Assembly: GCF_014892515.1 (NCBI RefSeq)
Contig: NZ_JADBGR010000075.1
Span: 1 to 50,431, forward strand
DNA length: 50,431 nucleotides
Source of the DNA: Myceligenerans pegani
GTDB lineage: Bacteria > Actinomycetota > Actinomycetes > Actinomycetales > Cellulomonadaceae
Direction of reading: 5' to 3'
How positions within the stretch are numbered: position 1 is the first letter of the stretch; each line of letters begins with the position of its first letter. Made by a program: the position numbers and the translations under genes. The notes beneath the pieces are model-generated. The model searched no databases, was not told the origin of the DNA, and saw nothing but the letters and a program-made list of their open reading frames with translations. This document shows, one piece after another, positions 32,198-50,431 of this stretch.

Positions 32198-34750
<2,553 letters not shown>

Positions 34751-34767: not shown

Positions 34768-34803
34768 CTTCTGCTTGACGGTCGGCAGAAGTCCCCCTAG
34801 ATT
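34768..34803 (+). promoter_or_regulatory. Promoter with ROK-type operator, DUF1080 gene
   Basis: TTGACG (34775-34780) and TAGATT (34798-34803) are 17 nt apart, a good sigma-70-type promoter. Around the -35 lies a perfect inverted repeat: CTTCTGC (34768-34774) and GCAGAAG (34785-34791) with a 10-nt centre. The same 24-bp arrangement is present before the ABC transporter operon. Repressor binding here would block the -35. Confidence 0.75.
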
Positions 34804-34839
34804 CGGGTCCGAAAGGTCAAAGCCGACCGAGGAGGGCGC

Positions 34840-37800
34840 ATGCGCTCGCGAGGACCCACGACCCGTACGAGACAGGTAGTCGCGCTGGCGGCTGCCGCAG
34901 CCACCACAGGCGCCGTGCTGACGGGGGCCGTCCCCGTCGCCGCGGCGGCGGCAGACGATCTGCCGCCGCAGGAACCGGGCGTCACCCTGAGGACCTACGA
35001 CATGGCACGGGACATCAGCGAGCTGTGCACGCTGCGCTCCGGCCAGACGCCGAACGTCGACCAGCTCAAGCCGACCATCGACTACTCGACGGACGCGGAC
35101 TTCGGCATGGGCGACCGCTTCATCGCGCACGCCCTGGCCAACCTGTCGGTGCCGTCCGACGGCACCTACGACTTCCGGCTCACCAGCGACGACGGCTCGC
35201 GCCTCGTGATCGACGACAGCGTTGTCGTCGACAACGACGGCCTGCACGGGGCCGAGTCCGTGGAGGGCTCGGCCGCCCTCACCGCCGGTTACCACGACCT
35301 GCGGGTGGAGTACTTCGAGAACACGGGGGACAACGTCCTCCGGTTGGAGTGGCGCCCGTCTGGGGCCGCGGAGTACGAGGTCGTGCCGTCGTCGGCCCTC
35401 AGCACCGAGGCGGGCGTGGTGCGGGTGACAGCGCCGGGCACCAAGTACTGCGAGGGCCAGGACGACACGGCGGGCGACGGCATGCGCCTGGACTCGGTCC
35501 ACCCGGGCTACACGCTCACCGACCTGCGCCCGGAGGGCTTCGAGCCCATGGTCTCGGCCCTCGACTGGACCGACGACGACCGCCTCGTCGTGGTCACGTC
35601 CGGCTCGGTCAGCCCGGCCGGCTGGGTCGAGGACCCGGAGCCGGGCGAGATCTTCCTGCTGGACAACGTGACCGGGGAGACCTCGCGGGAGCAGGTGGAG
35701 GTCGAGAAGGTCGCCACGGACCTGTTCAACCCGATGGGTGTCGCGGTGATCGGGGACTCGATCTACGTCTCCGAGCGCGACGCCCTGACGGAGCTGACCG
35801 ACCCGGACGGCGACGGCTTCTTCGACGAGCACCGCACGGTGGCGGAGTGGCCGTTCGGCGGCAACTTCCACGAGTTCGCCTTCGGCCTGCTGCACGACGA
35901 GGAGTACTTCTACGTCAACCTGTCCGTCGCGATCAACAACGGCGGCGCGACCACCGACCCGCAGCCCGCGGAGAACCGCGGCACCGCGATCCGGGTCGAC
36001 CGGGAGACCGGCGAGGTCGAGTACGTGGCCGGCGGCCTGCGCACGCCCAACGGCATGGTCGAGGGCCCGGACGGCGAGCTGTTCGTGATGGACAACCAGG
36101 GCGGGTGGCTGCCCAGCTCCAAGCTCGTGCACGTCGAGGAGGGCAAGTTCTTCAACCACTTCACCAACCCGGCGGGTCCGTTCGACGACGAGCCGGTGAG
36201 CGCCCCGGCCCTGTGGGTGCCGCAGAACGAGATCGGCAACTCCCCGAGTTCGCCGGTGCTGCTCGAGGACGGGCCGTACGCGGGCCAGCTCGTGTTCGGC
36301 GACGTCACCTACGGCGGCCTGCAGCGCGGCTTCCTCGAAGAGGTCGACGGCGAGTACCAGGGCGCGGTGTTCCGGCACTCCGCCGGACTGGAGGCCGGCG
36401 TCAACCGGACCGTCGTCGGGCCCGACGGGGCGCTGTACGTCGGCGGCATCGGTGAGGCCGGCAACTGGAGCGAGGAGGGCAAGCTGCGGTACGGCCTGCA
36501 GAAGCTCACGCCGAACGGCGAGCACGCCTTCGACATGACGGAGATGCGGGTCACGAGGAAGGGCTTCCGGATCGAGTACACGCAGCCGCTGTCGGAGGAG
36601 ACGGTCGCCGCGATCGCCGAGGACCCGAACGCCGCCTACCGCATGGACCACTGGCGGTACGTGCCCACCCCTGCCTACGGCGGGCCGAAGATCGACGAGC
36701 GTCCGCTGTTCGTCGACCGCGCCCGGGTGTCCCGGGACCGCACGACGGTGATGCTCACCGTCGACGGGCTCGAGCCGGGTCGCGTGGTGCACCTGCGCAG
36801 CCCGCGCCCGTTCACGGACGTCGAGGGCCGGGAGCTGTGGAACACCGAGGCGTGGTACACGCTCAACGCGATCCCCGGGTACCGGTCACCCGCCGAGCGC
36901 GGCTACCACGAGGCGGAGGAGGCGACGCTGCGGGGTTCGGCGAACGTCGACACCGAGCACTCCGGCTACTCGGGCTCCGGGTTCGTGGACGGGTTCGGGC
37001 AGGTGGGCGCATCGGCGACCTTCACCACGAGCGTCCGGCACCGGGGCACGTGGCCGGTGAACCTGCGGTACTCGAACGGGCCCAACCCCTTCGAAGGCAC
37101 CAAGACGGTCTCGGTGCTGGTCAACGGCGAAGAGGTCGAGCCCTGGGCGCTGGAGTCGACCGGTGACTGGAAGACGTGGGCGACGGCGACGCGGGATCTG
37201 CGGCTGAAGAAGGGCGTCAACACCATCACACTGCGCTACGACGAGGAGGACGACGGCAACGTCAACCTGGACGCCCTCACCATCGGCCGTCACACGGACC
37301 TCTGTCGTCCGGAACGGTACGAGCGGGGGTACGAGGCCCTGTTCGACGGCACCCTCGCGTCGTTCGACGAGTGGCGCCTGGCGGGCGCCGGGTCGTTCGG
37401 CCGGCAGAGCGACTGCTCGATCCGCAGCACGGGTGGCATGGGCCTGCTCTGGCACACCGGCGAGGAGCTGGGGCAGTACAGCCTCAAGCTCGACTGGAAG
37501 CTGCTCAAGGACGACAACGGCGGCGTCTTCGTCGGCTTCCCCGACCCGGGGAACGATCCGTGGGTCGCGGTGAACGAGGGCTACGAGATCCAGATCGACG
37601 CCAGTGACGAGCCCGACCGCACGACCGGGTCGATCTACACCTTCCAGGGCGCCGACCCGGCTGCCGTCGAGCGGGCGCTGAACCCGCCGGGGTCGTGGAA
37701 CTCCTACGAGATCCGCGTGGTGGGCGACACCATCAAGGTGTTCCTCAACGGGGTGCTGGTGAACGACTTCGTCAGCACCGACCCGGCGCGCGACCTCTCC

Positions 37801-37890
37801 CGGGGATACATCGGCCTCCAGAACCACGGGGGCGGGGAGACGATCTACTACCGGGACGTGCGGGTGAAGGATCTGTCGGACGCCGGCTGA
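34840..37890 (+). CDS. Secreted PA14 / sorbosone-dehydrogenase-like / CBM / DUF1080 protein
   Basis: A protein of 1016 residues with a signal peptide (1-46, ending VAAAAADD). Domains: PA14-like (50-185: YDFRLTSDDGSRLVIDDSVVVDNDGLHG, then GYHDLRVEYFENTG), a sugar/sorbosone-dehydrogenase-like beta-propeller (215-600), an Ig-like segment, a CBM35/CBM6-like module (685-825: EAEEATLRGSANVDTEHSGYSG) and a C-terminal DUF1080 domain (835-1012: LFDGTLASFDEWRLAG, LKLDWKLLKDDNGGVFVGF). DUF1080 proteins are described as 3-keto-disaccharide hydrolases. The inference is that the protein binds a glycan, oxidises a sugar and cleaves the keto-glycoside at the cell surface. GGAGGG precedes the ATG. The promoter shares its operator with the ABC operon. 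Substrate and cofactor (PQQ or heme) are unproven. Confidence 0.85.
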   Translation: MRSRGPTTRTRQVVALAAAAATTGAVLTGAVPVAAAAADDLPPQEPGVTLRTYDMARDISELCTLRSGQTPNVDQLKPTIDYSTDADFGMGDRFIAHALANLSVPSDGTYDFRLTSDDGSRLVIDDSVVVDNDGLHGAESVEGSAALTAGYHDLRVEYFENTGDNVLRLEWRPSGAAEYEVVPSSALSTEAGVVRVTAPGTKYCEGQDDTAGDGMRLDSVHPGYTLTDLRPEGFEPMVSALDWTDDDRLVVVTSGSVSPAGWVEDPEPGEIFLLDNVTGETSREQVEVEKVATDLFNPMGVAVIGDSIYVSERDALTELTDPDGDGFFDEHRTVAEWPFGGNFHEFAFGLLHDEEYFYVNLSVAINNGGATTDPQPAENRGTAIRVDRETGEVEYVAGGLRTPNGMVEGPDGELFVMDNQGGWLPSSKLVHVEEGKFFNHFTNPAGPFDDEPVSAPALWVPQNEIGNSPSSPVLLEDGPYAGQLVFGDVTYGGLQRGFLEEVDGEYQGAVFRHSAGLEAGVNRTVVGPDGALYVGGIGEAGNWSEEGKLRYGLQKLTPNGEHAFDMTEMRVTRKGFRIEYTQPLSEETVAAIAEDPNAAYRMDHWRYVPTPAYGGPKIDERPLFVDRARVSRDRTTVMLTVDGLEPGRVVHLRSPRPFTDVEGRELWNTEAWYTLNAIPGYRSPAERGYHEAEEATLRGSANVDTEHSGYSGSGFVDGFGQVGASATFTTSVRHRGTWPVNLRYSNGPNPFEGTKTVSVLVNGEEVEPWALESTGDWKTWATATRDLRLKKGVNTITLRYDEEDDGNVNLDALTIGRHTDLCRPERYERGYEALFDGTLASFDEWRLAGAGSFGRQSDCSIRSTGGMGLLWHTGEELGQYSLKLDWKLLKDDNGGVFVGFPDPGNDPWVAVNEGYEIQIDASDEPDRTTGSIYTFQGADPAAVERALNPPGSWNSYEIRVVGDTIKVFLNGVLVNDFVSTDPARDLSRGYIGLQNHGGGETIYYRDVRVKDLSDAG

Positions 37891-37915
37891 CACCCGGCGC
37901 CCGACGCGGTGGTGG

Positions 37916-37947
37916 CGACGCCCGGGACGGTCACGTCCCGGGCGTCG
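37916..37947. terminator. Bidirectional terminator between convergent genes
   Basis: A perfect 13-bp stem (37916-37928 with 37935-37947) and a 6-nt loop lie between the stops of the DUF1080 gene and the thuA-like gene. Its position suits termination from both sides. Confidence 0.75.
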
Positions 37948-37968
37948 TCGCGTCCTGCGGGCGCGCGG

Positions 37969-38640
37969 CTACGGTGCCGGGCGCGCCGCCCAGAGGAGTC
38001 CCCGCGTGATGATCCGGCGGATCGCCGGGTGCTCGAGCTCCGCGACCGAGTGGCCGACCGTGCAGGCGAAGACCCGTCCGTTCCCCCAGTGCCGGGTCCA
38101 GGTGACCGGCACGGTCACGGGCTCGCGCCACGGCGCGCCCGGCCGCGGCTGGTGAGTGGTCGTCATCAGGACGTCGCAGGCCGGGTCGTGCTGGACCCAG
38201 TACTGCTCGGTGTGCAGCCGGATCGGCGACTCGAGGCCCTCGACGACCGGGTGGTCGGCATGCTCGGGCCGGACCACGATCTCGTGGTCGATGAAGTCGT
38301 CGGGGTGGGCGACGAACTGGCCGCCGACGATGTGCTGGAAGTCGGTGGCGTTGCGGAAGGCGTCCAGGAGCCCGCCGTGCCAGCCCGCGAGGCCGGTGCC
38401 GTTCTCGACCGCGACGCGCAGGCCGTGCATCTCCTCGACCAGGATGTCGCCCATCGTCCACGACTGGACGACGAGGTCGACGCGGTCCATCGTCTCCTCG
38501 TCGGCGTAGATCTCCAGTGATTCCTCGACGATGACATCGAAGTCGGCGTCCCGGAGGAAGGGGACGAACAGGTCGGTGGTGCGTTTCGGGTCGTGTCCGT
38601 CCCAACCTCCTCGGACGACGAGTACGGTACGCGTGGTCAC
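37969..38640 (-). CDS. ThuA-domain protein, cytoplasmic
   Basis: A protein of 223 residues consisting of a single ThuA domain of the glutamine-amidotransferase-like fold: LVVRGGWDGHDPKRTTDLFVPFL, GLAGWHGGLLDAFRN, VGGQFVAHPDD and the C-terminal WTRHWGNGRVFACTVGHSVAELEHPAIRRIITRGLLWA. No catalytic Cys is at the elbow, as is normal for ThuA. No signal peptide is present. In Sinorhizobium, ThuA acts with the Gfo/Idh/MocA dehydrogenase ThuB in converting trehalose-type disaccharides through 3-keto derivatives. Here a Gfo/Idh/MocA gene lies in the divergent operon. The GTG start overlaps the ROK stop (GTGA), so it is translationally coupled to the regulator. Confidence 0.88.
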   Translation of the reverse strand: MTTRTVLVVRGGWDGHDPKRTTDLFVPFLRDADFDVIVEESLEIYADEETMDRVDLVVQSWTMGDILVEEMHGLRVAVENGTGLAGWHGGLLDAFRNATDFQHIVGGQFVAHPDDFIDHEIVVRPEHADHPVVEGLESPIRLHTEQYWVQHDPACDVLMTTTHQPRPGAPWREPVTVPVTWTRHWGNGRVFACTVGHSVAELEHPAIRRIITRGLLWAARPAP

Positions 38641-39854
38641 GAGACCTCCTTGGCAGCGATGAGAGTGTCGACCGACGATGGCGCGAGGTATTGCTCGATG
38701 ACAAGGGTCGCGGCTCCGACGACGCCGGCCTGGGCCCCCGCCTCCGACGGCGTGATCCGCAGGTCGCGCGTGGCCAGCGGGAGCGAGCGCTGGTAGACGA
38801 CCTCGCGGATGCCCGCCATGAGATGCTCGCCGGCGCCCGCGAGGATTCCGCCGACGACGATCCGCGCGGGGTTCAGCAGGCTGACGGACGCCGCCAGGAC
38901 GCTGCCGATGTCGCGGCCGGCCTGGCGGACGGCCTGCCCGGCGGCGACGTCGCCGGACCGGACGAGGTCGACGATGTCCTGGGTGGTGGCGACCGCGGAG
39001 CCGGAGTCACGCAGGCGGGTCACGATGGCGGCGCCGCCGGCGACGGCCTCGAGACAGCCGCTGTTCCCGCAGCGGCACGGGATGTCGCCCGCGCCCGGCA
39101 CGGTGACGTGCCCGAGGTCGCCCGCGGCGCCCTGAGCTCCCCGCCGCAGGTGGCCGTCCATGATGACGCCCGCGCCGATGCCGGTCGCCACCTTGACGAA
39201 CAGCAGGTCGTCGACGTCGGGGGTCATCGTGCGGTGCTCGCCGAGCGCCATGATGTTGACGTCGTTGTCCACCATCACGGGCGCGCCGAGTCGCGTGTAC
39301 AGCTCGGCCGGCACGTCGACGCCGCCCCAGCCCGGCATGATCGGCGGGTTGACGGGCCTCCCCGTGCCGTGGTCGACCGGGCCCGGAAGCCCGATGCCGA
39401 TGCCGGCGAGCTCCTCCATGCGGCGTCCCGCCTGGGTGACGAGCTTCCTGGCGGTCTCGGCGACCCAGTCCAGCACGGGCTCCGGGCCGTCGGCGATGGC
39501 GAGCGGCTCGTCGATCTGCGCGAGGGGTTCGGCCGCGAGGTCCGTGACGGCGATGCGCGCGTGGGTGGCCCCCAGGTCGACGCCCAGCGTGATGCGTGAC
39601 TGGGGATCGAAGGCAAAGGTCGACGGCGGCCGGCCACCGGTGCTGGTGGCCTCTCCGGCGGGGGCCAGCAGGCCCACCGAACGCAACGCGTCGATCCGTG
39701 CGGCGACGGTCGACCGTGACTGCCCGGTCTCGGCAACGAGTGAGGCCCGCGTCCGCGGCGCGCCGTTCCTGAACAGTTGGAACATCTCACCCGCCCCCGT
39801 CGGCCGCGGCGGGAATTTCGCCAGCCCTTCCATGAGCACAGTGAACCATGCCAC
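38637..39854 (-). CDS. ROK-family transcriptional regulator
   Basis: A protein of 405 residues. The N-terminal winged helix (about 20-80: RNGAPRTRASLVAETGQSRSTVAARIDALRSVGLL) is followed by a ROK kinase-like domain: GVDLGATHARIAVTDL (ATP/phosphate loop), GIGIGLPGPVDHG, VDNDVNIMALGEH, and the zinc motif PCRCGNSGCLEAVAGG. The DNA-binding domain makes it a XylR/NagC-type repressor rather than a sugar kinase. AAAGG lies close before the ATG at 39854; an ATG at 39833 is the alternative. The gene is coupled to the thuA-like gene and divergent from the ABC operon, whose promoter carries a copy of the 24-bp site. It is the best candidate for the regulator of the whole locus, with a sugar or keto-sugar as inducer. 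Confidence 0.92.
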   Translation of the reverse strand: MAWFTVLMEGLAKFPPRPTGAGEMFQLFRNGAPRTRASLVAETGQSRSTVAARIDALRSVGLLAPAGEATSTGGRPPSTFAFDPQSRITLGVDLGATHARIAVTDLAAEPLAQIDEPLAIADGPEPVLDWVAETARKLVTQAGRRMEELAGIGIGLPGPVDHGTGRPVNPPIMPGWGGVDVPAELYTRLGAPVMVDNDVNIMALGEHRTMTPDVDDLLFVKVATGIGAGVIMDGHLRRGAQGAAGDLGHVTVPGAGDIPCRCGNSGCLEAVAGGAAIVTRLRDSGSAVATTQDIVDLVRSGDVAAGQAVRQAGRDIGSVLAASVSLLNPARIVVGGILAGAGEHLMAGIREVVYQRSLPLATRDLRITPSEAGAQAGVVGAATLVIEQYLAPSSVDTLIAAKEVS

Positions 39855-39921
39855 CTTTCGTTGCGACTTTGTCGTCTGCGGATCCCCGTCACGGGAAGGT
39901 AACAGTCCTAAAGTACCGGAA

Positions 39922-39958
39922 CTTATGATTGACAGTGTGCAGAAGTCGCCCCTAGGGT
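39922..39958 (+). promoter_or_regulatory. Promoter with ROK-type operator, ABC transporter operon
   Basis: TTGACA (39929-39934) and TAGGGT (39953-39958) are 18 nt apart; the ATG follows 6 nt after the -10. CTTATGA (39922-39928) and GCAGAAG (39939-39945) flank a 10-nt centre. This matches the site before the DUF1080 gene at 19 of 24 positions, with two mismatches in the left arm. The rest of 39855-39964 must also contain the ROK promoter, which I could not place. Confidence 0.72.
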
Positions 39959-39964
39959 CGGCGT

Positions 39965-41485
39965 ATGGTCACCGGAGACCCCACAGCACCGCTGCTGCAG
40001 ATGCATGGCATCGTCAAGCACTTCCCGGGCGCCAAGGCGCTCGACGGCGTCGACCTCGACGTCGTCGCCGGCGAGGTGCACTGCCTCCTGGGACAGAACG
40101 GGGCCGGCAAGTCGACCCTCATCAAGGTTCTCGCCGGGGCCCACCAGCCCACCGCCGGCACGATCCGGCTGGACGGCGAGCAGATCCGGATCCCGCACCC
40201 GGTCGCGGCCCTCGAGCACGGCATCGCGACGATGTACCAGGAGCTCGACGTCGTCGACGGGCTCACCGTGGCCGAGAACATCTATCTCGGCCACGAGCTG
40301 GCATCGGCGGGCTTCACGCAGCGGCGCGAGGCCGCCGGTCACACCCGTCGCCTCATGGAGCGACTGGGGCATCCGGAGATCGGACCCCACCGTGAGGTCG
40401 GCACGCTGTCGGCCGCCGGCAAGCAGATCGTCTCGATGGCGCGTGCCCTGTCGCGGGACGCGCGGGTGATCGTCATGGACGAGCCGTCTGCGGTCCTGGA
40501 CTCCGGTGAGGTCGACAACCTCTTCCGCGTGGTGGAGGAGCTCACCGGCCAGGGCATCGCGATCATCTACATCTCCCACCGCCTCGAGGAGATCCGCCGC
40601 ATCGGCGACCGCATCACCGTCCTCAAGGACGGCATGACCGTCGGCCGGAACCTCCCGGTCGCCTCGACGTCCACGGACGAACTCATCAAGCTCATGACCG
40701 GCAAGAACGTGGAGTACGCGTTCCCCGAACGACCCGGCGTCCCGCGGGACGCCCCGGTCCGGCTCGAGGTCGAGGGGCTCGGCCTGGCGAACACCTTCCG
40801 CGACGTCTCCTTCACGGTGCGCGCGGGTGAGATCGTCGGCCTGGCCGGCCTCGTCGGATCGGGCCGCTCGGAGATCCTCGAGACGGTCTACGGCGCGCGC
40901 CGTGCGACGGCGGGGAGGATCACCCTCGACGGGCGCTCGCTGCGGCGTGGTTCCGTCGCCGCGGCGGTCTCCGCCGGGATCGGCCTCGCCCCGGAGGAGC
41001 GCAAGAGCCAGGGCCTGGTCCTCGACGAACCCGTCTACCGCAACGTCACCCTCGCCAGCTTCGCCCGCATGGCCCCGGCCGGGTGGCTCGACGAGCGCGC
41101 GGAGAAGAAGGCAGCCCGGGAGCAGGCCACCGCTCTCGATCTGCGTCCCCGCGACGTCGAGCGCGCGATCCGGACGCTGTCGGGAGGCAACCAGCAGAAG
41201 GCGATGCTCGCCCGCTGGCTCGTGCACGGGTGCGACGTGCTGCTGCTCGACGAGCCGACCCGCGGCGTCGACGTCGGGGCGCGGTCCGAGATCTACGCCC
41301 TCATCCGCCGCCTGGCCGACGCGGGCACCGCCGTCGTCGTGGTCTCGAGCGAGATCCCCGAGGTGCTGGGACTGGCGGACCAGGTGCTGGTCGTGTCCGA
41401 CGGGCGGGTCGTGCGCAGCGGACCCGCGCAGGAGATCGACGAGCACCAGGTGCTCGACCTCGTCATGGAAGGAACAAGCGCGTGA
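39965..41485 (+). CDS. Sugar ABC transporter ATPase, RbsA type
   Basis: A protein of 506 residues with two fused ABC domains, as in RbsA/XylG/MglA. Domain 1 has Walker A GQNGAGKST (43-51), signature LSAAGKQ and Walker B VIVMDEPSAVLD. Domain 2 has the degenerate P-loop GLVGSGRSEILE that is normal in this family, signature LSGGNQQKAMLARWL (about 405) and Walker B LLLDEPTRGVDVG. It energises import of a monosaccharide or small glycoside. The ATG is predicted to be at the transcription start, so the message looks leaderless. The permease start overlaps its stop by 4 nt (GTGA). Which sugar is carried cannot be told from the ATPase. Confidence 0.93.
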   Translation: MVTGDPTAPLLQMHGIVKHFPGAKALDGVDLDVVAGEVHCLLGQNGAGKSTLIKVLAGAHQPTAGTIRLDGEQIRIPHPVAALEHGIATMYQELDVVDGLTVAENIYLGHELASAGFTQRREAAGHTRRLMERLGHPEIGPHREVGTLSAAGKQIVSMARALSRDARVIVMDEPSAVLDSGEVDNLFRVVEELTGQGIAIIYISHRLEEIRRIGDRITVLKDGMTVGRNLPVASTSTDELIKLMTGKNVEYAFPERPGVPRDAPVRLEVEGLGLANTFRDVSFTVRAGEIVGLAGLVGSGRSEILETVYGARRATAGRITLDGRSLRRGSVAAAVSAGIGLAPEERKSQGLVLDEPVYRNVTLASFARMAPAGWLDERAEKKAAREQATALDLRPRDVERAIRTLSGGNQQKAMLARWLVHGCDVLLLDEPTRGVDVGARSEIYALIRRLADAGTAVVVVSSEIPEVLGLADQVLVVSDGRVVRSGPAQEIDEHQVLDLVMEGTSA

Positions 41486-42510
41486 CCGAACCCACGGCCG
41501 CCCCGCCGGCCGACAAGGAGATCAAGAACGAGAGCAGGACCCGACTCCCCTCGATGTTCTCCGGCGCCGCCGGCCGCAACGTCGGGCTCGTGCTGGCGCT
41601 GGTGCTGATCTGCGTGGTGGGGGTCATCACCGGTGGCGGACGGTTCGCCAGCATCGACAACCTCATGGTCGTCCTGCGGCTGGCCTCCGTCATCGGCGTC
41701 CTCGCGATCGGGATGACGTTCGTCATCACCTCGGGAGGCATCGACCTCTCGGTCGGTTCCGTCATGGGCCTGACGACCGTCTGGGCCACCACGTGGGCGA
41801 CGCAGGCCATGGCCGAGGACCTCCACTGGGGGGTGATGGTCTTCACCGCCATGGTCGTCGGCACCGTCGCCGGCCTCGTCAACGGCGTGATCATCGCCTA
41901 CGGGCGCGTCGTCCCGTTCATCACCACCCTGGCGATGCTGGCCGCCGCACGTGGCCTGGCGGAGATGATCTCGAACCGGCAGACCCAGCGGGTCCAGAGC
42001 GATGCCTTCATCGAGTTCTTCCGGCTGGAGCCGCTCGGTGTACCGATCCTCGTGTGGGTCTTCGCCGCCGTGGCGGTGGCGGGCTGGTTCCTGCTCAACC
42101 GGACGACGTTCGGGCGGCGGACCGTCGCGATCGGCGGCAACGCGGAGGCGTCGCGCCTCGCCGGCATCAAGGTGCAGCGCCACACCCTCTACATCTACGG
42201 CCTGGCCGGCCTGACCGCGGGGATCGCCGGTGCGATGATGCTCGGCCGCACCACCGCCGGTACCTCCACCCACGGCATGCTCTGGGAGCTCGAGGCCATC
42301 GCCGCCGTCGTCGTCGGCGGCACGCTGCTCATCGGTGGTCGCGGCACGATCGTCGGCACCGTGGTGGGCGTCCTCATCTTCACCGTGCTGACCAACGTGT
42401 TCACCATCAACAACATGTCGACCTCGGCGCAGCTGGTCGCCAAGGGCGCCATCATCGTGGCCGCCGTCCTCCTGCAGCAGCGTTTCGCGAACCGGTCGAA
42501 GTCGACCTGA
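41482..42510 (+). CDS. Sugar ABC transporter permease, RbsC type
   Basis: A protein of 342 residues. After a polar N-terminus of 32 residues there are about 8-10 hydrophobic segments. Family signatures are IGMTFVITSGGIDLSVGSVMGL, GRVVPFITTLAMLAAARGLA, TTFGRRTVAIGGNAEASRLAGIKV (the ATPase-coupling loop) and LWELEAIAAVVVGGTLLIGGRGTIVGTVVG. It forms the membrane channel, presumably as a homodimer, of a ribose/xylose-type importer. The GTG start is coupled to the ATPase stop. The binding-protein gene follows after 75 nt. Confidence 0.93.
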   Translation: MTEPTAAPPADKEIKNESRTRLPSMFSGAAGRNVGLVLALVLICVVGVITGGGRFASIDNLMVVLRLASVIGVLAIGMTFVITSGGIDLSVGSVMGLTTVWATTWATQAMAEDLHWGVMVFTAMVVGTVAGLVNGVIIAYGRVVPFITTLAMLAAARGLAEMISNRQTQRVQSDAFIEFFRLEPLGVPILVWVFAAVAVAGWFLLNRTTFGRRTVAIGGNAEASRLAGIKVQRHTLYIYGLAGLTAGIAGAMMLGRTTAGTSTHGMLWELEAIAAVVVGGTLLIGGRGTIVGTVVGVLIFTVLTNVFTINNMSTSAQLVAKGAIIVAAVLLQQRFANRSKST

Positions 42511-42585
42511 CCGGCCCCCGGGGCCCACCCCCACAGCAACCCGACCGAACCCCCGCAAGTACCGGACCGAATCGAGGAAGATCTC

Positions 42586-43644: not shown

Positions 43645-43660
43645 GGACGGAGGTCACCGA

Positions 43661-43691
43661 CGGTGGCGAGGCGGCCGCGGCCTCGCCACCG
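43661..43691 (+). terminator. Hairpin after the binding-protein gene
   Basis: A perfect 12-bp stem (43661-43672 with 43680-43691) and a 7-nt loop lie 16 nt after the stop. Because the oxidoreductase gene follows in the same direction, it may be a partial terminator or a 3' end stabiliser that raises binding-protein levels relative to the downstream genes. Confidence 0.65.
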
Positions 43692-43745
43692 CCCTCCCGG
43701 TCGCCGGTGACGGCGGCCGGACCCGACGACGGAAGGACCACACTC

Positions 43746-44924
43746 ATGGGTGACGCGCCCCGCGATCAGCTAGGCGTCGGCATGGTCGGCTACTCCTTCA
43801 TGGGTGCCGCTCACTCCCAGGCCTGGCGGACCGCCCCTCGCTTCTTCGACCTCCCGCTGCGGATCGACATGCGCGTCGTCGCCGGGCGCTCCGCGGACGG
43901 CGTGCGCGCCGCGGCCGAGCGGCTCGGCTGGCAGGACTCGACGACCGACTGGCGCACGCTGCTGGAGCGCGACGACGTCGAGCTGGTCGACGTCTGCACG
44001 CCCGGGAACACGCACGCCGAGATCGCCGTCGCCGCCCTGGACGCCGGCAAGCACGTGCTGTGCGAGAAGCCGCTGGCCAACACGGTCGCCGAGGCCGAGC
44101 AGATGGCCGCGGCGGCCGAGCGGGCGGCGGAACGAGGGGTCCTGGCGATGGTGGGCTTCACCTATCGGCGGGTGCCGGCGATCCGGCTCGCCCGGGAGCT
44201 GGTGGCCGACGGCCGCATCGGCGAGGTGCGCCACGTGCGGGCGCAGTACCTGCAGGACTGGCTGACCGACCCGGCGGCGCCGCTGTCGTGGCGGCTGGAC
44301 AAGGACAAGGCCGGCTCCGGCGCCCTGGGTGACATCGGGGCGCACGTGGTCGACCTGGCCCAGTTCGTCACCGGCGAGTCCCTCGTGGGGGTCAGCGGGC
44401 TGCTCGAGACGTTCGTCCGCGAGCGTCCCGTGGCGGCGTCGTCGTCCGGGCTGTCCGGCCAGGCGGGCGAGGGCACCGGCGAGGTCACCGTGGACGACGC
44501 CGCGCTGTTCTTCGGGAGGCTGTCCGGCGGCGGCCTCGCCAGCTTCGAGGCGACGCGGTTCGCCGCGGGCCGCAAGAACGCCATACGGCTCGAGATCAAC
44601 GGCTCGCGCGGCTCGCTGGCGTTCGACTTCGAGGACATGAACGTCCTGCACTTCTTCGACGACGGCGAGGACGCACGCACGGCGGGCTTCCGCCGCATCG
44701 TGGTGACCGAGCCGGACCACCCCTACATCGCGGCCTGGTGGCCGCCCGGCCACGGGCTCGGCTACGAGCACGGGTTCACCCACCAGGTGGTGGACCTGGT
44801 CGAGGATCTGGCGGCCGCCCGCCAGCCGCGGCCGTCGTTCGCCGACGGCCTCGCCGTCCAGCGCGTGCTCGACGCCGTCGAGCGCAGCTGGCAGCAGGGC
44901 AGCGGCTGGGTGGAGCTGTCCTGA
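43746..44924 (+). CDS. Gfo/Idh/MocA-family oxidoreductase
   Basis: A protein of 392 residues. The Rossmann segment GVGMVGYSFMGAAHSQAW (10-27) binds NAD(P). VDVCTPGNTHAEIAVAALDAGKHVLCEKPLANTVAEAEQM carries the EKP motif (Lys about 107), which helps catalysis and cofactor binding. MVGFTYRRVPAIRLARELVADGRIGEVRHVRAQYLQDWLTDP and GALGDIGAHVVDLAQFVTGE are typical of sugar C3 or inositol dehydrogenases, with the GDIGxH motif holding the catalytic Asp/His. ThuB, which oxidises disaccharides at C3, belongs to this family. GGAAGGA lies 8 nt before the ATG at 43746; an in-frame GTG at 43707 has less support. Its place in the operon suggests it oxidises the imported sugar. Confidence 0.9.
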   Translation: MGDAPRDQLGVGMVGYSFMGAAHSQAWRTAPRFFDLPLRIDMRVVAGRSADGVRAAAERLGWQDSTTDWRTLLERDDVELVDVCTPGNTHAEIAVAALDAGKHVLCEKPLANTVAEAEQMAAAAERAAERGVLAMVGFTYRRVPAIRLARELVADGRIGEVRHVRAQYLQDWLTDPAAPLSWRLDKDKAGSGALGDIGAHVVDLAQFVTGESLVGVSGLLETFVRERPVAASSSGLSGQAGEGTGEVTVDDAALFFGRLSGGGLASFEATRFAAGRKNAIRLEINGSRGSLAFDFEDMNVLHFFDDGEDARTAGFRRIVVTEPDHPYIAAWWPPGHGLGYEHGFTHQVVDLVEDLAAARQPRPSFADGLAVQRVLDAVERSWQQGSGWVELS

Positions 44925-45067
44925 CGGCCCGGACCGATCCGACGAGAGGAGGCGCGGGCCCGCCCGACGCCCGAGAGACACGACCAGACCGGTGACGATG
45001 CCGTCAGGGCCGACGGCTTCGGGACCCCGGAGCGCGACAAGACCGTTCGACGACGAAGGAGTTCTTG

Positions 45068-48000
45068 GTGAGTAACTTGCTCTGGGGAGCACCACGTGCG
45101 GGCCGGTGGCTGATCGCCGCCGCTGCCTCACTCGCGGTCGCCGCTCCCATGACGCTGGCCGGCGCGACGCCGGCACAGGCAGCCGTACCGGCTGCGCCAT
45201 CGACCGGGCAGCTTGCCGCGGCCCCGGCGGAGGCCGATCCGTTCAGCGTGCTCGTCTTCTCCAAGACGGCGGGCTTCCGGCACGGATCCATCCCCGCCGG
45301 GATCGCCGCCATCGAGCAGCTCGGCGTCGATCACGGGTTCACCGTGGACGCCACCGAGGACGCGGCGGCGTTCACCGACGAGAACCTTGCGAACTACGAC
45401 GTCGTCGCGTGGCTCTCCACGACCGGCGACGTGCTGGACGACGAGCAGCAGGCCGCGTTCGAGCGGTACATCCAGAACGGCGGCGGTTACGCCGGCATCC
45501 ACGCGGCGTCCGACACGGAGTACGACTGGCCGTGGTACGGGGAGCTGGTGGGCGCCTACTTCAACTCCCACCCGCAGAACCAGGACGCCACGATCAAGGT
45601 CGAGGACCACGAGCACGCCTCGACCGAGCACCTGCCGGAGCGGTGGGAGCGCCACGACGAGTGGTACAACTTCCGCTCCAACCCGCGCGACGAGGTCCAC
45701 GTCCTGGCCTCCCTGGACGAGTCCAGCTACGACGCCGGGACCGGCGCGATGGGGGCGGAGCACCCGATCGCCTGGTGCCACGCCTACGACGGGGGCCGTG
45801 CCTGGTACACGGGCGGCGGCCACACCGACGCCTCGTTCAGCGAGCCGGAGTTCCTCGAGCACCTGCTGGGCGGCCTGCAGACCGCGGCCGGCGTCGTCGA
45901 CTCCGACTGCGCCGCGACGCAGAGCGACAGCTACGAGATGGTGCCCCTCGACGAGGAGACCTCGAACCCGATGATGCTGGACGTGGCCGACGACGGCACC
46001 GTCTTCTACGTCGAGCGGGACGGGCGCGTGCAGCGGATCGACCCGGAGTCGGACACCACGAGCACCGCGATGACGCTGTCCGTCACGCAGTCCAACGAGG
46101 ACGGGCTGACCGGCGTCGTGCTCGACCCGGACTTCGCGACCAACGGATGGGTGTACCTGTTCTGGTCCCCGCAGGACGTCGGCGACGACGGCCCGCACAA
46201 CCGCGTCTCGCGCTTCGACTACGACCCGGCTTCCGGCACGATCGACCCGGCCACCGAGGAGACCGTGCTGGTCATCCCGACCCAGCGTCAGACGTGCTGT
46301 CACGCGGGCGGTGACATGGTCTTCGACGCCGACGGCAACCTGTACGTCGCCACCGGCGACAACACGAACCCGTTCGAGTCGCAGGGCTACGCGCCGCTGG
46401 ACGAGCGGACCGGGCGCCAGAACTACGACTCGCAGCGCACGGCGGCCAACAGCAACGACCTGCGCGGCAAGATCCTGCGGATCACGCCGCAGGACGACGG
46501 CTCGTACACGATTCCCGAGGGCAACATGTTCGCCCCCGGCACGGCCGACACCCTGCCCGAGATCTACGCGATGGGCTTCCGCAACCCGTTCCGGATCGGT
46601 GTCGATCCCGCCAACGGAAACGTTCTCGTCGCGGACTACGGCCCGGACGCCGGTTCGGCCAGCCCGAGTCGCGGACCCGAGGGCCTGGTCGAGTGGAACG
46701 TCGTCAGCGAGCCCGGCTTCTACGGCTGGCCGTACTGCACCGGCGCGAACAGCGCCTACCACGAGTACGACTTCGCCACCGGCCAGTCCGGCGCGGCGTA
46801 CGACTGCGCCGGCGGCCCCGTGAACGACTCGCCGAACAACACCGGCATCACCCAGCTCCCGCCCGCCGTGGAGTCCGAGGTCTGGTACGGGTACGCGAGC
46901 AACCCGCTGTTCCCGGAGATCGGCGGCGGCGGCGCGCCCATGGGCGGCCCGGTCTACTCGTACGACCCGGCGCTGGAGTCCGACGTCAAGTGGCCGGCCT
47001 ACTGGGACGGCAAGGCGCTGTTCGGCGAGTGGAACCAGGGGCGGATGTACTCCTTCCAGCTCACCGGCGAGCAGCGCGACGACCTGGTGGACATCAACCG
47101 CGTCCTGCCCGGGATCTTCGACCCCGACGCCGGGTTCGACCGGCCGATGGACTTCGACTTCGGTCCCGACGGCGCGCTGTACGTCGTGGACTGGGGCTCC
47201 GGGTTCGGCGGCAACAACGACAACTCGGGGGTGTACAAGGTCAACTACGTCGAGGGCGACCCGGCGCCGATCGCCCGGGCCTCCGCCGACGTGACCGACG
47301 GCCACGCCCCGCTGACCGTGCAGTTCTCGTCTGAGGGCACCCGGCACCCGTCCGGCGAGCCGATCTCGCTCCAGTGGACGTTCGGCGACGGTTCCGAGCC
47401 GACCACCGAGGCGAACCCGACCCACACCTACACCGAGAACGGCCGCTACACCGCCCAGCTCGTCGCGACCGACGCCGCCGGGCAGACCGGTGTCGCCAAC
47501 GTGACGATCGTGGTCGGCAACCTCGCCCCGGAGGTGTCGATCACGTTCCCGGAGAACGGCGGCTTCTTCGAATGGGGCGACCAGGTGCGCTACGAGATCG
47601 ACGTCAACGATCCCGACGGTGAGGTGACCTGCGAGAACGTCACGCTGTTCACCCGGCTCGGACACGCGGGGCATTCCCACCCGTTCGACGAGCTGACCGG
47701 CTGCTCGGGCGTCTTCCAGACCGCCCGGGACGAGGGCCACGGCATCGAGGCGAACATCTTCTGGGTCATCGAGGCGTTCTACACCGACGACGGCGGCGCG
47801 GCCGGCGTCCCGCTGACCACGACCGATCTGCAGGTGCTGCAGCCCAAGCTGGTCCAGTCCGAATTCTTCACCGGCACGGGCCGGGTCGACGGCATCGGCG
47901 ACGGCGCGGGTGACCCGGGCGTCCAGATCGAGGAGACGGGCGACACCGCCGGTGGCGGCCAGAACATCGGCTTCATCGAGCCGGGCGACTACTGGGCCCA

Positions 48001-50410
48001 CGAGCCGGTGAGCCTGGCGTCCGTCGACGGGATCTCGCTGCGCGCCGCCTCCGCCGGCGACGGCGGGGAGGTGTCGCTGCGCTGGGACGCGCCCGACGGC
48101 CCGGAGATCGGCCGCATCACGGTGCCCGGAACCGGCGGCTGGCAGCAGTACGTCGACGTGGGGACCGCGCTGAGCAACGTCCCGTCCGGCTCGGGGTCCC
48201 TGCACTTCGTGCTGCTCTCCGGCGGGATCAACGTCAACTGGATGGAGATCGACGGCCGCGGGGTCACCGACAACCAGCGGCCGGAGGTCGCGCTGACGGT
48301 CGACCCGGTCTCGGGCGACGCCCCGCTCACCGTGACCGCCACCGCCGAGGCCACCGACCCGGACGGCTCCGGCGACCTCACCTACGCGTGGGACGCCGGT
48401 CTCGGTGACGGGTTCGTCGACGGCACGCCGTCGTTCGAGCACACCTACGACGAACGGGGCACCTACCGCCTCCAGGTGCGCGTCACCGACGAGGGCGGCG
48501 CCTACGCCGTCGAGTACGCGACGATCGAGGTCACCGGCACCGTGCCGGAGCCGACGCCCTGCCTGTCGGGCAGGTCGGACGACTTCCTCGGCGACGACCT
48601 CGACCCGAACCGATGGACCGTGCTCGATCGCAACCAGGACCTGCGGGTCGCCGACGGCGTCCTCACGATCCCGGCGACCGCCACGGACTTCTACGGGACG
48701 AACAACACAGAAGTGCCCAACCTCGTCCTGCAGGACCTGCCCGACGGCCCCTTCACCGCGACGGCCAAGGTCACGATCCCGGCCCACGCCCAGTACCAGC
48801 AGGCCGGCCTGCTGATCTACGGCGACGCGGACAACTACGCGAAGATGGTGATCGAGGGCCGCTCGTCGCCCGCCGACCCGGCCACGCGCATCTTCCAGTA
48901 CATCCGGGAGGAGGGCGGCGCGCCCAACGAGGTCGGGGAGTCCAACACCGCGGCCCTCGGAGCGGCGTACCCGGACACGGTGTACGTGCGCCTGGCCAGC
49001 AGCGACGGCCAGGACCTCACGGCGTCGTACTCGCCCGACGGCGCGACCTTCACGGCCATGCCGCAGACCAAGTCGCTCGCCGGCATCACCGATCCGCGGA
49101 TCGGACTCTTCGCGCTCGCCGGCAGCGGCTCGGCCGCGCAGGTGGTGGACGCGCAGTTCGACTGGTTCCACCTCACCCCTGACGACACGGCGGAGGCTCC
49201 CGGGCCCGACGACGAGTTCGACGGGGACGGGCTCGACGGCTGCCGCTGGGACGTCGTCCGCGACGATCCGACGGGGTACCGGGTGACCGGTGGCGCGCTG
49301 GAGATCGACACGACCGCCACCGACATCTACACCGGCAGCAACACCGACACGCCGAACATCGTCGTGCAGGACCTGCCGGAGGACGACTGGACGGTCGAAA
49401 CCCGGGTGGACGGCTCGGACTTCGACCAGCAGTACCAGCAGGGCGGTCTGATCGTGTACGGCGACGACGACAACTACGTCAAACTCGACCTCGTGACGGA
49501 CAACGCGCCGGGGAGCGCCGTCACGCAGCGCATCGAGCTGCGTAGCGAGGTCGATGCCGTGATCCAGGACCCGCAGCCGGGCGCGAACGACCTCACGTCG
49601 CGCGTGTGGCACCTGCGGCTGTCGAAGGCAGGGTCCACCTTCACCGGTGAGTACAGCGCGGACGGCGAGGACTGGACCGCCCTCGCCGAGCCGGTGACGC
49701 ACGAGGGACTGCAGGACGCCCGGGTGGGTCTGTTCGCGCTCGGCGGTCCTCAGCAGTCGGTCGCCACGGCGTCGTTCGACCACTTCCGGGTGGCCGGGAC
49801 CACGGAGCCCGAGCTCATCGCGGCGACGCCGGCGGTCGAGGTCGTCCAGCCCACGTGCTCGTACGACGCGTCCGGGGCGGAGGTCGTCACCGGAGGGTCG
49901 CTGGTCACGGCCGAGGTGACCGGGGTGCGGTCCTACGTCGTGCGGGAATGGGCCGACGGTTCCGCCGGTGACCGCCTGACCGACCTGGACGGGCTCGCTC
50001 CGGGGACGTACCGGATCGCCGTCCGGCCCGCCGACGGCTACTACCTGGTCGCCGACGGCGACTGGAGGGTCCGGGACGACGGGCTCGCCGTGCTCTTCGT
50101 GACGCTGGAGGAGCCCGAGTGCCCGGACCCGAACACGCCGGACGTCGTCGTCACCCCGGCGACGTGCGACGCCGGGGGGTCGATCGATCCGGTCGAGCTC
50201 CCCGGGGTGCGTAGCTACACGGTGCACCGCTGGGTGGACGGCCACCCGCGCGGCAAGCCGCGTGACCTCGAGAACCTCGCGCCGGGCGACTACCGGGTGA
50301 TCGCCTCGCCGACCCGCCGCACCGAGCTGACGGTCACCGGCGACTGGCGGCTCAGCCCGTCCGGCAAGGCGCGCGTCGTCGTGACCGTCGGGGAGGTGTG
50401 CGACCGATGA
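45068..50410 (+). CDS. Giant secreted ThuA / sorbosone-dehydrogenase / PKD / CBM protein
   Basis: A protein of 1780 residues. Signal peptide 1-40 (ends ATPAQAA). Domains: ThuA (58-278: VLVFSKTAGFRHGSIPAGI, GYAGIHAASDTEYDW, YTGGGHTDASF), a glucose/sorbosone-dehydrogenase propeller (288-727: CCHAGGDMVFDADGNLYVATGDN, MGFRNPFRIGVDP), PKD (731-817), an Ig-like segment (818-925), a CBM6-like module (926-1065), PKD (1070-1155), and two related concanavalin-like lectin domains (about 1165-1375 and 1380-1585, each with QDLP and QYQQ(A/G)GL(L/I)xYGDxDNY). Two C-terminal repeats of about 95 residues follow. There is no LPxTG motif or C-terminal helix. The GTG at 45068 has AAGGAG 6 nt upstream. It probably works on a polysaccharide outside the cell as partner of the DUF1080 protein. 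Confidence 0.88.
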   Translation: MSNLLWGAPRAGRWLIAAAASLAVAAPMTLAGATPAQAAVPAAPSTGQLAAAPAEADPFSVLVFSKTAGFRHGSIPAGIAAIEQLGVDHGFTVDATEDAAAFTDENLANYDVVAWLSTTGDVLDDEQQAAFERYIQNGGGYAGIHAASDTEYDWPWYGELVGAYFNSHPQNQDATIKVEDHEHASTEHLPERWERHDEWYNFRSNPRDEVHVLASLDESSYDAGTGAMGAEHPIAWCHAYDGGRAWYTGGGHTDASFSEPEFLEHLLGGLQTAAGVVDSDCAATQSDSYEMVPLDEETSNPMMLDVADDGTVFYVERDGRVQRIDPESDTTSTAMTLSVTQSNEDGLTGVVLDPDFATNGWVYLFWSPQDVGDDGPHNRVSRFDYDPASGTIDPATEETVLVIPTQRQTCCHAGGDMVFDADGNLYVATGDNTNPFESQGYAPLDERTGRQNYDSQRTAANSNDLRGKILRITPQDDGSYTIPEGNMFAPGTADTLPEIYAMGFRNPFRIGVDPANGNVLVADYGPDAGSASPSRGPEGLVEWNVVSEPGFYGWPYCTGANSAYHEYDFATGQSGAAYDCAGGPVNDSPNNTGITQLPPAVESEVWYGYASNPLFPEIGGGGAPMGGPVYSYDPALESDVKWPAYWDGKALFGEWNQGRMYSFQLTGEQRDDLVDINRVLPGIFDPDAGFDRPMDFDFGPDGALYVVDWGSGFGGNNDNSGVYKVNYVEGDPAPIARASADVTDGHAPLTVQFSSEGTRHPSGEPISLQWTFGDGSEPTTEANPTHTYTENGRYTAQLVATDAAGQTGVANVTIVVGNLAPEVSITFPENGGFFEWGDQVRYEIDVNDPDGEVTCENVTLFTRLGHAGHSHPFDELTGCSGVFQTARDEGHGIEANIFWVIEAFYTDDGGAAGVPLTTTDLQVLQPKLVQSEFFTGTGRVDGIGDGAGDPGVQIEETGDTAGGGQNIGFIEPGDYWAHEPVSLASVDGISLRAASAGDGGEVSLRWDAPDGPEIGRITVPGTGGWQQYVDVGTALSNVPSGSGSLHFVLLSGGINVNWMEIDGRGVTDNQRPEVALTVDPVSGDAPLTVTATAEATDPDGSGDLTYAWDAGLGDGFVDGTPSFEHTYDERGTYRLQVRVTDEGGAYAVEYATIEVTGTVPEPTPCLSGRSDDFLGDDLDPNRWTVLDRNQDLRVADGVLTIPATATDFYGTNNTEVPNLVLQDLPDGPFTATAKVTIPAHAQYQQAGLLIYGDADNYAKMVIEGRSSPADPATRIFQYIREEGGAPNEVGESNTAALGAAYPDTVYVRLASSDGQDLTASYSPDGATFTAMPQTKSLAGITDPRIGLFALAGSGSAAQVVDAQFDWFHLTPDDTAEAPGPDDEFDGDGLDGCRWDVVRDDPTGYRVTGGALEIDTTATDIYTGSNTDTPNIVVQDLPEDDWTVETRVDGSDFDQQYQQGGLIVYGDDDNYVKLDLVTDNAPGSAVTQRIELRSEVDAVIQDPQPGANDLTSRVWHLRLSKAGSTFTGEYSADGEDWTALAEPVTHEGLQDARVGLFALGGPQQSVATASFDHFRVAGTTEPELIAATPAVEVVQPTCSYDASGAEVVTGGSLVTAEVTGVRSYVVREWADGSAGDRLTDLDGLAPGTYRIAVRPADGYYLVADGDWRVRDDGLAVLFVTLEEPECPDPNTPDVVVTPATCDAGGSIDPVELPGVRSYTVHRWVDGHPRGKPRDLENLAPGDYRVIASPTRRTELTVTGDWRLSPSGKARVVVTVGEVCDR
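49820..50407 (+). repeat. Two tandem C-terminal protein repeats
   Basis: The last 190 codons of the giant gene encode two similar units of about 95 residues. Each has a Cys near its start (QPTC / TPATC), then GVRSYxVxxWxDG, DLxxLAPGxYR, GDWR and a closing xExC. I recognise no named domain. The Cys pairs suggest one disulfide per unit. Confidence 0.6.
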
Positions 50411-50431
50411 ACCGGGGGCGTGCGCCGGTAT

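Follow-up and report, generated by a model that had tools for sequence, protein, structure and literature searches.

A putative ROK-controlled locus for oxidative glycoside breakdown in Myceligenerans pegani, with a palindrome that recurs before ebo and copper genes

Could an actinobacterium break glycosidic bonds by oxidation both outside and inside the cell, and could one regulator control both sides? This question is raised by a locus of Myceligenerans pegani on contig NZ_JADBGR010000075.1 (C63), bases 1-50431 of which form the window, i.e. the whole stretch of 50,431 nucleotides that was analysed. Its genes are here called A to K (Table 1): a secreted propeller-DUF1080 protein (A), a cytoplasmic ThuA protein (B), a ROK regulator (C), a sugar importer (D, E, F), a Gfo/Idh/MocA oxidoreductase (G), a secreted ThuA-propeller protein (H), the small protein I and two TIM barrels (J, K). 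Gene calls rest on open reading frames and Pfam, to which NCBIfam and PDB searches were added; hereby, the two ThuA domains, DUF1080, Gfo/Idh/MocA and ROK proteins and the RbsABC-type importer named in a preliminary description of this DNA were all recovered. That description had placed the locus at 34768-50410. The start coincides with the first base of a palindrome before A, while the end falls too early, as the window stops 21 bases past H and the locus runs on for about 3 kb with I, J and K. J and K, which lie beyond the window, change the reading of the locus most. We consider it rather probable that the locus encodes a ROK-controlled 3-keto oxidation/elimination route divided between two compartments, so that one switch may run sugar breaking by oxidation on both sides of the membrane. 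The preliminary interpretation is partly supported by the data, and we see in the locus a variant of the 3-keto-glycoside pathways already known, one that is unexpectedly connected with ebo and copper. In the following, C63, C94, C93 and C46 denote contigs of this 5.87 Mb genome and L-numbers (e.g. L035) the genome stretches that were read; published sources are drawn on for the parts available to us.

Core enzymes and their conservation

The oxidoreductase G carries the Rossmann and C-terminal domains (Pfam), the EKP motif and the catalytic Asp and His of Gfo/Idh/MocA enzymes, the roles of which are described in PMC5969746. Among 143 homologues the motif GD[IL]xxH occurs in 143 and EKPL in 138. 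The best PDB match of G is 4h3v (633 bits), which the available text of the same 2018 paper (PMC5969746) describes as biochemically uncharacterised. The best characterised match is the levoglucosan dehydrogenase 6a3f (300 bits), and the scyllo-inositol/L-glucose dehydrogenase 5ya8 scores 212 bits. Against the levoglucosan dehydrogenase model LgdA (NF052479) G reaches 360 bits, well under the curated equivalog cut-off of 650, and we therefore did not file it as a levoglucosan dehydrogenase. IolG gives 105 bits (NCBIfam), and the match to BT_2158_fam is weak (56 bits, cut-off 750). We describe G as a predicted glycoside/anhydrosugar C3-dehydrogenase.

J matches two PDB structures only at E<=0.001, namely SCO6571 (2zds, 561 bits) and 8ro4 (125 bits, E 4.6e-35), the latter being the 2-hydroxy-3-keto-glucal hydratase AtHYD. 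A structure model of J (pLDDT 83.8) fits 8ro4 with a TM score of 0.87 at 28% identity, and the next listed fold families, epimerases and others, reach about 0.6-0.65. Both fold and sequence thus relate J to AtHYD and make it a hydratase-like candidate; its top NCBIfam model is IolE, at 46 bits against a cut-off of 290. To our knowledge, SCO6571/2zds is a structure without a known reaction. 4h3v and SCO6571/2zds are close relatives of G and J, which are operon neighbours across many actinobacterial families, and both structures therefore gain a concrete assay.

To evaluate conservation, 119 genomes including that of M. pegani were surveyed, 73 of which hold a G relative (E<=1e-80). Two samples of loci were read: 79 stretches around G relatives, chosen by G, and 80 named loci chosen by J, i.e. 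the best 80 of at least 595 places. As the samples partly overlap, their counts are descriptive, not independent. J is the commonest partner of G (67 of 79 stretches), and D, E, F and G stand together in 57 of the 79. Within these 57, C is found in 56 and J in 53, always with C; two of the four stretches lacking J (L043, L052) hit a contig end just behind G. B is present in 27 of the 57, the ThuA domain of H in 23, the DUF1080 domain of A in 5 and K in 6. The gene order recurs in relatives beyond chance. Hence the co-conservation expected in the preliminary description holds for the core, A and H being optional. Where H occurs, it lies between G and J (23 of 23 stretches), and protein I accompanies it in 19 of these 23, compared to none of the 56 other relatives' stretches. 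The named J loci hold G in 67, C in 50, D in 46, E in 49 and F in 48 of 80 cases, and the full set from C to G in 32; the J-bearing families include Promicromonosporaceae, Microbacteriaceae, Nocardioidaceae, Kribbellaceae, Pseudonocardiaceae, Micromonosporaceae and Streptomycetaceae. Across 160 stretches (the 79, the 80 and one own-genome stretch without G or J), J follows G within 600 bp in 96, within 2.5 kb in 6 and further away in 32, and 13 stretches have no J. A scan of viral contigs for the ROK protein gave seven pattern matches and no relative.

A scheme of oxidation, elimination, hydration and reduction has been published for levoglucosan (PMC7676230, PMC10066097) and for an Agrobacterium glucoside operon (PMC10628242). 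By sequence, homologues of all four enzymes are present in the M. pegani genome: G and J on C63, and a second TIM barrel (TIM2) and a second Gfo protein (Gfo2), whose genes overlap by 4 bp, on C94. This pair shows 49% (TIM2) and 54% (Gfo2) identity to a Micrococcaceae pair, and the C94 TIM2 scores 53-55 bits against 8tcs, 8tcd and the eliminase AtOGE (8bvk). In Micrococcaceae, TIM2, Gfo2, G and J form a single cassette in 6 of the 80 named loci (L174, L186, L187, L188, L190, L196; L179, in which Gfo2 was not called, stands outside this count). Hereby, the best solved relative of TIM2 is AtOGE (71 bits), and the palindrome described below lies at the ROK gene of the same locus. This composition is that of the levoglucosan and Agrobacterium operons, apart from the type of the first dehydrogenase in Agrobacterium. 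K matches 8tcd/8tcs, entries named sugar phosphate isomerase or TIM barrel, with 87 bits and AtOGE weakly with 37 bits.

Of the 73 G-bearing genomes 25 hold TIM2 (E<=1e-40), and of the 46 G-less ones 4 do (Fisher p 0.002, uncorrected for kinship); as far as this survey of TIM2 shows, eliminase and reductase are not constant companions of G and J in relatives. Elimination may also be carried out by the ThuA protein B or by J itself. LgdB2 can do part of the job of LgdB1 (available part of PMC7676230), and G stands with ThuA and without J in the stretches of five relatives (L096, L100, L102, L103, L104). B occurs in 3 of 11 TIM2-bearing and 25 of 45 other core loci (L052, at a contig end, was dropped); a complementarity of B and TIM2 was rejected as not significant (p 0.18). 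G and J are separated by a xylose isomerase gene in 5 of the 80 named loci (L143, L146, L152, L154, L167), with the identity checked on one locus (581 bits, cut-off 447); its position inside the operon fits a free aldose as end product.

The ROK-linked palindrome and its further sites

The intergenic sequences of the locus contain a palindrome around a -35-like TTGAC. A search of the window for CTTNTGNTTGACNNNNNNCANAAG that tolerated two mismatches returned two sites, compared to 0.01 expected: one before A (34768) and one between C and D (39922), neither of them with a mismatch. In the whole genome the strict pattern occurs at these two sites and at one further site with one mismatch, and the reversed pattern does not occur. 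CTTNTG-N12-CANAAG is present in 73 of the 160 stretches. Of the 91 loci whose C is at least 52% identical, 65 carry the palindrome no more than 500 bp upstream of this gene, compared to none of 22 with a less similar C; the reversed pattern is absent from the same interval in all 113 loci. Four relatives with A at the same place (L035, L036, L047, L050) also carry the palindrome before A. These distributions suggest that the regulator C has its own, putative operator, and the ROK control proposed in the preliminary description is strengthened by the copy before A.

A somewhat looser pattern was searched in 59 genomes, the own genome included. Since the search with up to one mismatch was noisy, exact sites alone were read. 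There are 52 distinct ones: 30 belong to the core locus, and 22, among them four immediately downstream of J, lie outside the C/D and A promoters. All 22 precede DUF1080, ThuA or propeller genes, importer, eliminase, ebo or copper/redox genes, whereby counting L256 and L268 as related is a judgement. An A-type protein follows the site in L254 and L266, and in L270 and L272 it is followed by a multicopper oxidase, a ThuA-GSDH-DUF1080 protein and a protein with a plastocyanin-like domain. A multicopper oxidase also follows in L268, and copper/redox genes in L256 (Table 1). In L255, L259, L265, L269 and L271 the site is followed by a second importer operon, which includes a TIM barrel and a ThuA-GSDH protein; all of these except L271 also have a distant Gfo gene. 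The TIM barrel, checked in one case, is psicose-3-epimerase-like. Further sites precede the ATPase of this second importer alone (L273), a GSDH protein and K (L260), and TIM2-Gfo2 together with J and a G of varying similarity (38% in L261, 53% in L107). Exact sites unlinked to the core precede DUF1080 proteins in four genomes, and 9 of the 24 DUF1080 matches of at least 60 bits in the 59 genomes stand behind an exact site. In L122, L123 and L125 a second importer operon with TIM barrel and ThuA-GSDH follows J and is itself preceded by the palindrome.

That an operator-like element is common to ebo genes and sugar oxidation is the most surprising part of these data. In L257, L258, L262, L263, L264 and L267 the site is followed by an inositol-phosphate-synthase-like gene, verified by Pfam in one case, and by UbiA-, TatD-, EboE- and EboF-like genes, EboE scoring above its cut-off in L258 and L263. 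A further site lies on contig C93 of M. pegani itself, where an inositol-phosphate-synthase-like gene at the contig end probably begins 68 bp behind it; the site deviates from the strict pattern at one position and fits the looser one without mismatch. In the genus, each of the four genomes searched carries the ebo-side site. EboE-type genes also stand beside J or its locus in 7 of the 80 named loci (L121, L124, L132, L160, L163, L177, L182), checked among these on L163 (438 bits, cut-off 250). The ebo genes have been proposed to make an isoprenoid-cyclitol compound (PMC5133447), and in Nostoc they are needed to move the scytonemin precursor to the periplasm, where ScyE is the proposed oxidiser (PMC6282210). 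Their role outside scytonemin synthesis is given as open in the available parts of both papers (PMC5133447, 2016; PMC6282210, 2018). We found no paper that links a ROK palindrome to ebo and copper genes in a literature search that was thin on subscription journals.

Copper appears at several places in this material. N-terminal histidine residues can bind copper, and protein I, which has no Pfam or NCBIfam match, starts with AHGG at its predicted mature N-terminus in 23 of 23 rows, some of which are probably one gene from two collections. A second giant secreted ThuA protein, fused to a galactose-oxidase-like propeller, is encoded on contig C46 (L114:9356-17681), where DUF1775 and CopC/CopD genes follow it and no palindrome is found. 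Together with the multicopper oxidases behind the palindrome, protein I and this neighbourhood suggest copper as the outside electron acceptor.

Secreted proteins and competing explanations

The preliminary description had assigned sorbosone-dehydrogenase propellers to both large secreted proteins, which the domain searches support for H and not for A. H matches ThuA (PF06283, 281.3 bits) and GSDH (PF07995, 121 bits, profile positions 2-227 of 332). A contains the sole DUF1080 match of the genome (PF06439, 128.6 bits, above the gathering cut-off of 26.8), and no match to GSDH PF07995 was obtained for it at E<=0.001. The AlphaFold model of its middle part, built with seven similar rows, has a pLDDT of 42 and was therefore not used; instead, a wider alignment was scanned against NCBIfam. 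The middle part of A reaches 29 bits (cut-off 122) with the model TIGR02604 for PVC-type propellers, a weak match; 18 of 22 diverse homologues match this model. Its similarity to the ScyD/ScyE family is weak too (A itself 24 bits, cut-off 80), with 21 of the 22 homologues matching at E<=0.001. A profile comparison with the GSDH part of H is weak as well (9.7% and 49.6% probability over 36-37 columns).

ThuA PF06283 lies above cut-off in both B and H, and 21 columns, five of them His, are conserved to at least 90% in cytoplasmic ThuA proteins (n=33) as well as in the ThuA domain of H (n=38). The common residues include (B/H numbering) His16/73, His88/146, His112/169, His130/184, His197/253, Asp93/150 and Glu145/199. 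B and H also co-occur in core loci (19 of 24 versus 9 of 32, p 0.0003; L052, at a contig end, dropped), an association that is not significant on the tree: four independent pairs lie on supported branches, in which B changes along with H in a mean of 2.2 pairs and opposite to H in none. These observations agree with the idea of the preliminary description that outside and inside have matching chemistry. Twelve DUF1080 domains have invariant acidic residues and one His in common. Fusions and neighbours of the domains vary, from ThuA-GSDH (H) and propeller-DUF1080 (A) to ThuA-GSDH-DUF1080 (L270) and a ThuA-DUF1080 protein beside a GSDH protein (L135, L182). We know of no job assigned to extracellular ThuA or GSDH-like domains.

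The propeller of H keeps a His and an Arg-Asn pair at the places that we take to contact PQQ in soluble glucose dehydrogenase, and has Asn where that enzyme has a Lys that presumably also contacts PQQ. PqqE, the one pqq gene searched for, was not found above cut-off in the genome (best 60 bits versus 381). Both results make it doubtful that H is an ordinary PQQ enzyme, and PQQ chemistry, still conceivable for it, was set aside.

As we picture the favoured route, the ROK repressor C would control a pathway that breaks glycosidic bonds by oxidation rather than by plain hydrolysis. Outside, the carbohydrate-binding proteins H and A would act on oxidised, probably 3-keto, glycosides, helped by the Tat-secreted TIM barrel K and possibly by I as a copper protein. 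The products would enter through the RbsABC importer, and a sugar or intermediate would release ROK from the palindromes that enclose the -35 box. We prefer this reading because the homologies of G, J, TIM2, Gfo2 and K all indicate 3-keto chemistry and because the palindrome connects A with the importer operon. The oxidative, non-hydrolytic pathway of the preliminary description is supported, as a lyase-type route in place of an ordinary glycosidase locus, as far as relatedness goes, with a hydratase-like J, a K like 8tcd/8tcs and a G nearest to levoglucosan dehydrogenase. What we observed is gene content, palindrome distribution and relationships of sequence and fold; all reactions with their C3 position, the inducer, the act of repression and the acceptor of electrons outside are inferred from these. 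The palindrome predicts that deletion of the ROK gene derepresses importer, dehydrogenase and secreted propeller-DUF1080 protein together, and in some relatives ebo and copper genes too. The putative regulon is a way into the jobs of ebo and of the extracellular ThuA and GSDH-like domains.

Several points weigh against this reading. The 52% identity split behind the distribution of the palindrome was chosen after seeing the data, 26 of the 91 close ROK genes have no strict palindrome within 500 bp, and the looser pattern with up to one mismatch gave 80 matches versus 48 for the reversed pattern, with no separate control for the exact ones. In the own genome no operator was seen before TIM2-Gfo2. 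TIM2 (E<=1e-40) is absent from 48 of 73 G-bearing genomes, among them three congeners examined, which makes the identity of the eliminase uncertain. No outside oxidant is established, since PQQ use by H is doubtful. Of the 79 stretches, 5 hold A and 23 hold H, which makes both optional, and K, in 6, is rare. J stands without G upstream in 13 of the 160 stretches, in some of them beside ebo genes. Of the 52 DUF1080 matches of at least 60 bits in the 119 genomes, 46 lie elsewhere and 6 at this locus. Single-DUF1080 proteins include the 3-ketotrehalose hydrolase BT2157 and a putative 3'-ketolactose hydrolase, and the family also includes an endo-xanthanase/lichenase (PMC9007349), so that DUF1080 need not act on 3-keto sugars.

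A different catabolic role, unlikely on balance and already raised for inositol in the preliminary description, would be that of cyclitols, with G as a scyllo- or myo-inositol-type dehydrogenase, J as an inosose dehydratase and the secreted proteins as co-regulated carbon scavengers. The clade that 4h3v, the best match of G, shares with scyllo-inositol dehydrogenase, an enzyme with L-glucose activity (available text of PMC5969746), speaks for this role and counts against 3-keto-glycoside oxidation; IolE as top model of J and the inositol-phosphate-synthase-like and ebo genes, beside J in some genomes and behind the palindrome, point the same way. Levoglucosan dehydrogenase, however, gives G a higher score (300 bits) than the L-glucose/inositol enzyme does (212 bits), IolG reaches 105 bits, the nearest named structure of J is the ketoglucal hydratase, and glycan-binding modules, DUF1080 on the secreted parts and the xylose isomerase of some operons fit cyclitols poorly. 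Distinctly improbable is the view that propellers, ThuA and DUF1080 are non-catalytic glycan-binding scaffolds and that ordinary hydrolases encoded elsewhere do the work. The lack of a PqqE above cut-off, the replaced PQQ-contact Lys and the absence of an identified active site in the propeller of A would suit it, as would the match of the H propeller to hedgehog-interacting protein, which we take to have the fold without such an enzyme role. It is opposed by the His, Asp and Glu residues conserved over 33 cytoplasmic and 38 secreted ThuA sequences, by the acidic residues of the 12 DUF1080 domains and by the hydrolases, one of them putative, reported among single-DUF1080 proteins (PMC9007349).

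Very unlikely, in our estimate, is a regulon that mainly makes or exports an isoprenoid-cyclitol compound through ebo, importer and G/J recycling its sugar part. In seven cases the 22 non-core exact sites stand before an inositol-phosphate-synthase-like gene; six of these continue with ebo genes, and in the seventh, that of the own genome, the contig ends. Moreover, ebo is the proposed maker of such a compound (PMC5133447); EboE-type genes are nevertheless confined to 7 of the 80 named J loci, and importer and secreted glycan-binding proteins point to catabolism. We give least credit to a true levoglucosan locus. Levoglucosan dehydrogenase is the best-matching named family of G, yet the score lies far below the family cut-off, an anhydrosugar would need no glycan-binding secreted proteins, the TIM barrel linked to G, namely J, resembles a hydratase, and TIM2, the eliminase-like one, is encoded on a different contig. 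The 3-keto route can also be extended to a bolder proposal, which we regard as doubtful: a single ROK regulon may run an extracellular, copper-linked oxidative machine for glycan cleavage that includes ebo. Here, propellers would oxidise sugar units, ThuA and DUF1080 would cleave the keto-glycosides, multicopper oxidase, plastocyanin-like protein and the N-terminal-His protein I would take up the electrons, and the ebo cluster would supply or export a small molecule needed by the outside enzymes. Its basis is that exact sites in relatives precede all of these classes except I, to which the AHGG start and the H-bound occurrence of protein I and the CopC/CopD neighbourhood of the second secreted ThuA on C46 are added. 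If true, ThuA, GSDH-like propellers, DUF1080 and ebo would obtain one common job.

Among known systems, the rhizobial ThuEFGKAB genes give ThuA a Gfo-type 3-dehydrogenase and a sugar ABC importer as neighbours, and J-less stretches that combine G with ThuA occur among the relatives (L096, L100, L102-L104); the present locus differs in J, a secreted ThuA fused to a propeller and a ROK regulator. Gut Bacteroides reportedly use a broad-specificity pathway, BT2156-BT2160, of Gfo enzymes, TIM-barrel lyases and DUF1080, and 8tcd/8tcs, matched by K and TIM2, are presumably its lyases; in contrast, the present locus is split between compartments and has ThuA, propellers and a ROK-linked palindrome, and its match to BT_2158_fam is weak. 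Caulobacter combines LacABC with a periplasmic DUF1080 protein, likewise secreted and thought to act on 3-keto disaccharides (PMC9007349), while DUF1080 is here fused to PA14, propeller and CBM35. The levoglucosan genes lgdA-lgdB1-lgdB2-lgdC of Bacillus smithii and Paenarthrobacter also comprise a Gfo/Idh/MocA dehydrogenase, TIM-barrel partners and a sugar ABC importer; in B. smithii a LacI-type regulator is annotated beside them (PMC7676230) in place of ROK, and the present locus differs further in a G under the family cut-off, in added ThuA and large secreted proteins and in eliminase- and reductase-like genes on another contig. From the Agrobacterium operon of four enzymes (GlycDH, AtOGE, AtHYD, Gfo reductase), J resembles AtHYD, and TIM2 and, weakly, K resemble AtOGE. 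Its first oxidation is carried out by the flavoprotein GlycDH (PMC10628242), compared to an NAD-type Gfo enzyme here, where ThuA, DUF1080 and propeller proteins stand outside in addition. A literature search, thin on subscription journals, returned no paper that joins DUF1080, ThuA and sorbosone dehydrogenase.

Layout of the locus

The locus sits between ligA and an rRNA operon (Table 1), in DNA with a G+C content of 71.8%. Signal peptides of A, H and K were judged by eye. A promoter and terminator scan of 39850-50431 found no promoter and left the operon ends unclear, so that a single transcript from D to K is an assumption.

Table 1. Features of the locus and of two further palindrome sites. 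Plain positions refer to the window.
Feature	Position	Strand	Description	Support
ligA	32198-34750		directly upstream of the locus	748 bits, cut-off 369
Palindrome CTTCTG-N12-CAGAAG	34768..34791	+	operator-like; TTGAC -35-like element inside; precedes A	
A	34840..37890	+	secreted, 1016 aa; PA14, weak PVC-type propeller, CBM35/6, DUF1080	Pfam, NCBIfam
B	37969..38640	-	cytoplasmic ThuA-family protein, 223 aa	PF06283 154.7 bits
C	38637..39854	-	ROK-family transcriptional regulator, 405 aa; 4 bp overlap with B	PF00480 206 bits
Palindrome CTTATG-N12-CAGAAG	39922..39945	+	operator-like; divergent C/D promoter region	
D	39965..41485	+	sugar ABC importer ATPase, RbsA/AraG type	Pfam, NCBIfam
E	41482..42510	+	sugar ABC importer permease	Pfam, NCBIfam
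F	42586..43644	+	importer substrate-binding lipoprotein	PF13407 144.7 bits; lipobox by eye
G	43707..44924	+	Gfo/Idh/MocA oxidoreductase; predicted glycoside/anhydrosugar C3-dehydrogenase	
H	45065..50410	+	secreted, 1781 aa, start TTG or GTG; ThuA, GSDH propeller, PKD, CBM6, PKD, 2x DUF1349	
I	C63:50691-51278		195 aa; secreted, with C-terminal membrane segment	by eye
J	C63:51328-52380		350 aa, TIM barrel	
K	C63:52433-53410		325 aa, TIM barrel; twin-arginine (Tat) signal	signal by eye
rRNA operon (16S, 23S, 5S)	C63, after K			
Site on C93	L224:1501-1524		before inositol-phosphate-synthase-like gene	
Site with the genes behind it, in L256	L256:1001-5423		before PepSY-type membrane protein, PCuAC-like copper chaperone and DyP peroxidase	chaperone by eye

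ligA is near the locus in 37 of the 57 relatives' stretches with importer and G; much of the family therefore keeps the locus at one and the same place of the chromosome. Elsewhere in the window, a tRNA-Gly gene lies at 6088-6158.

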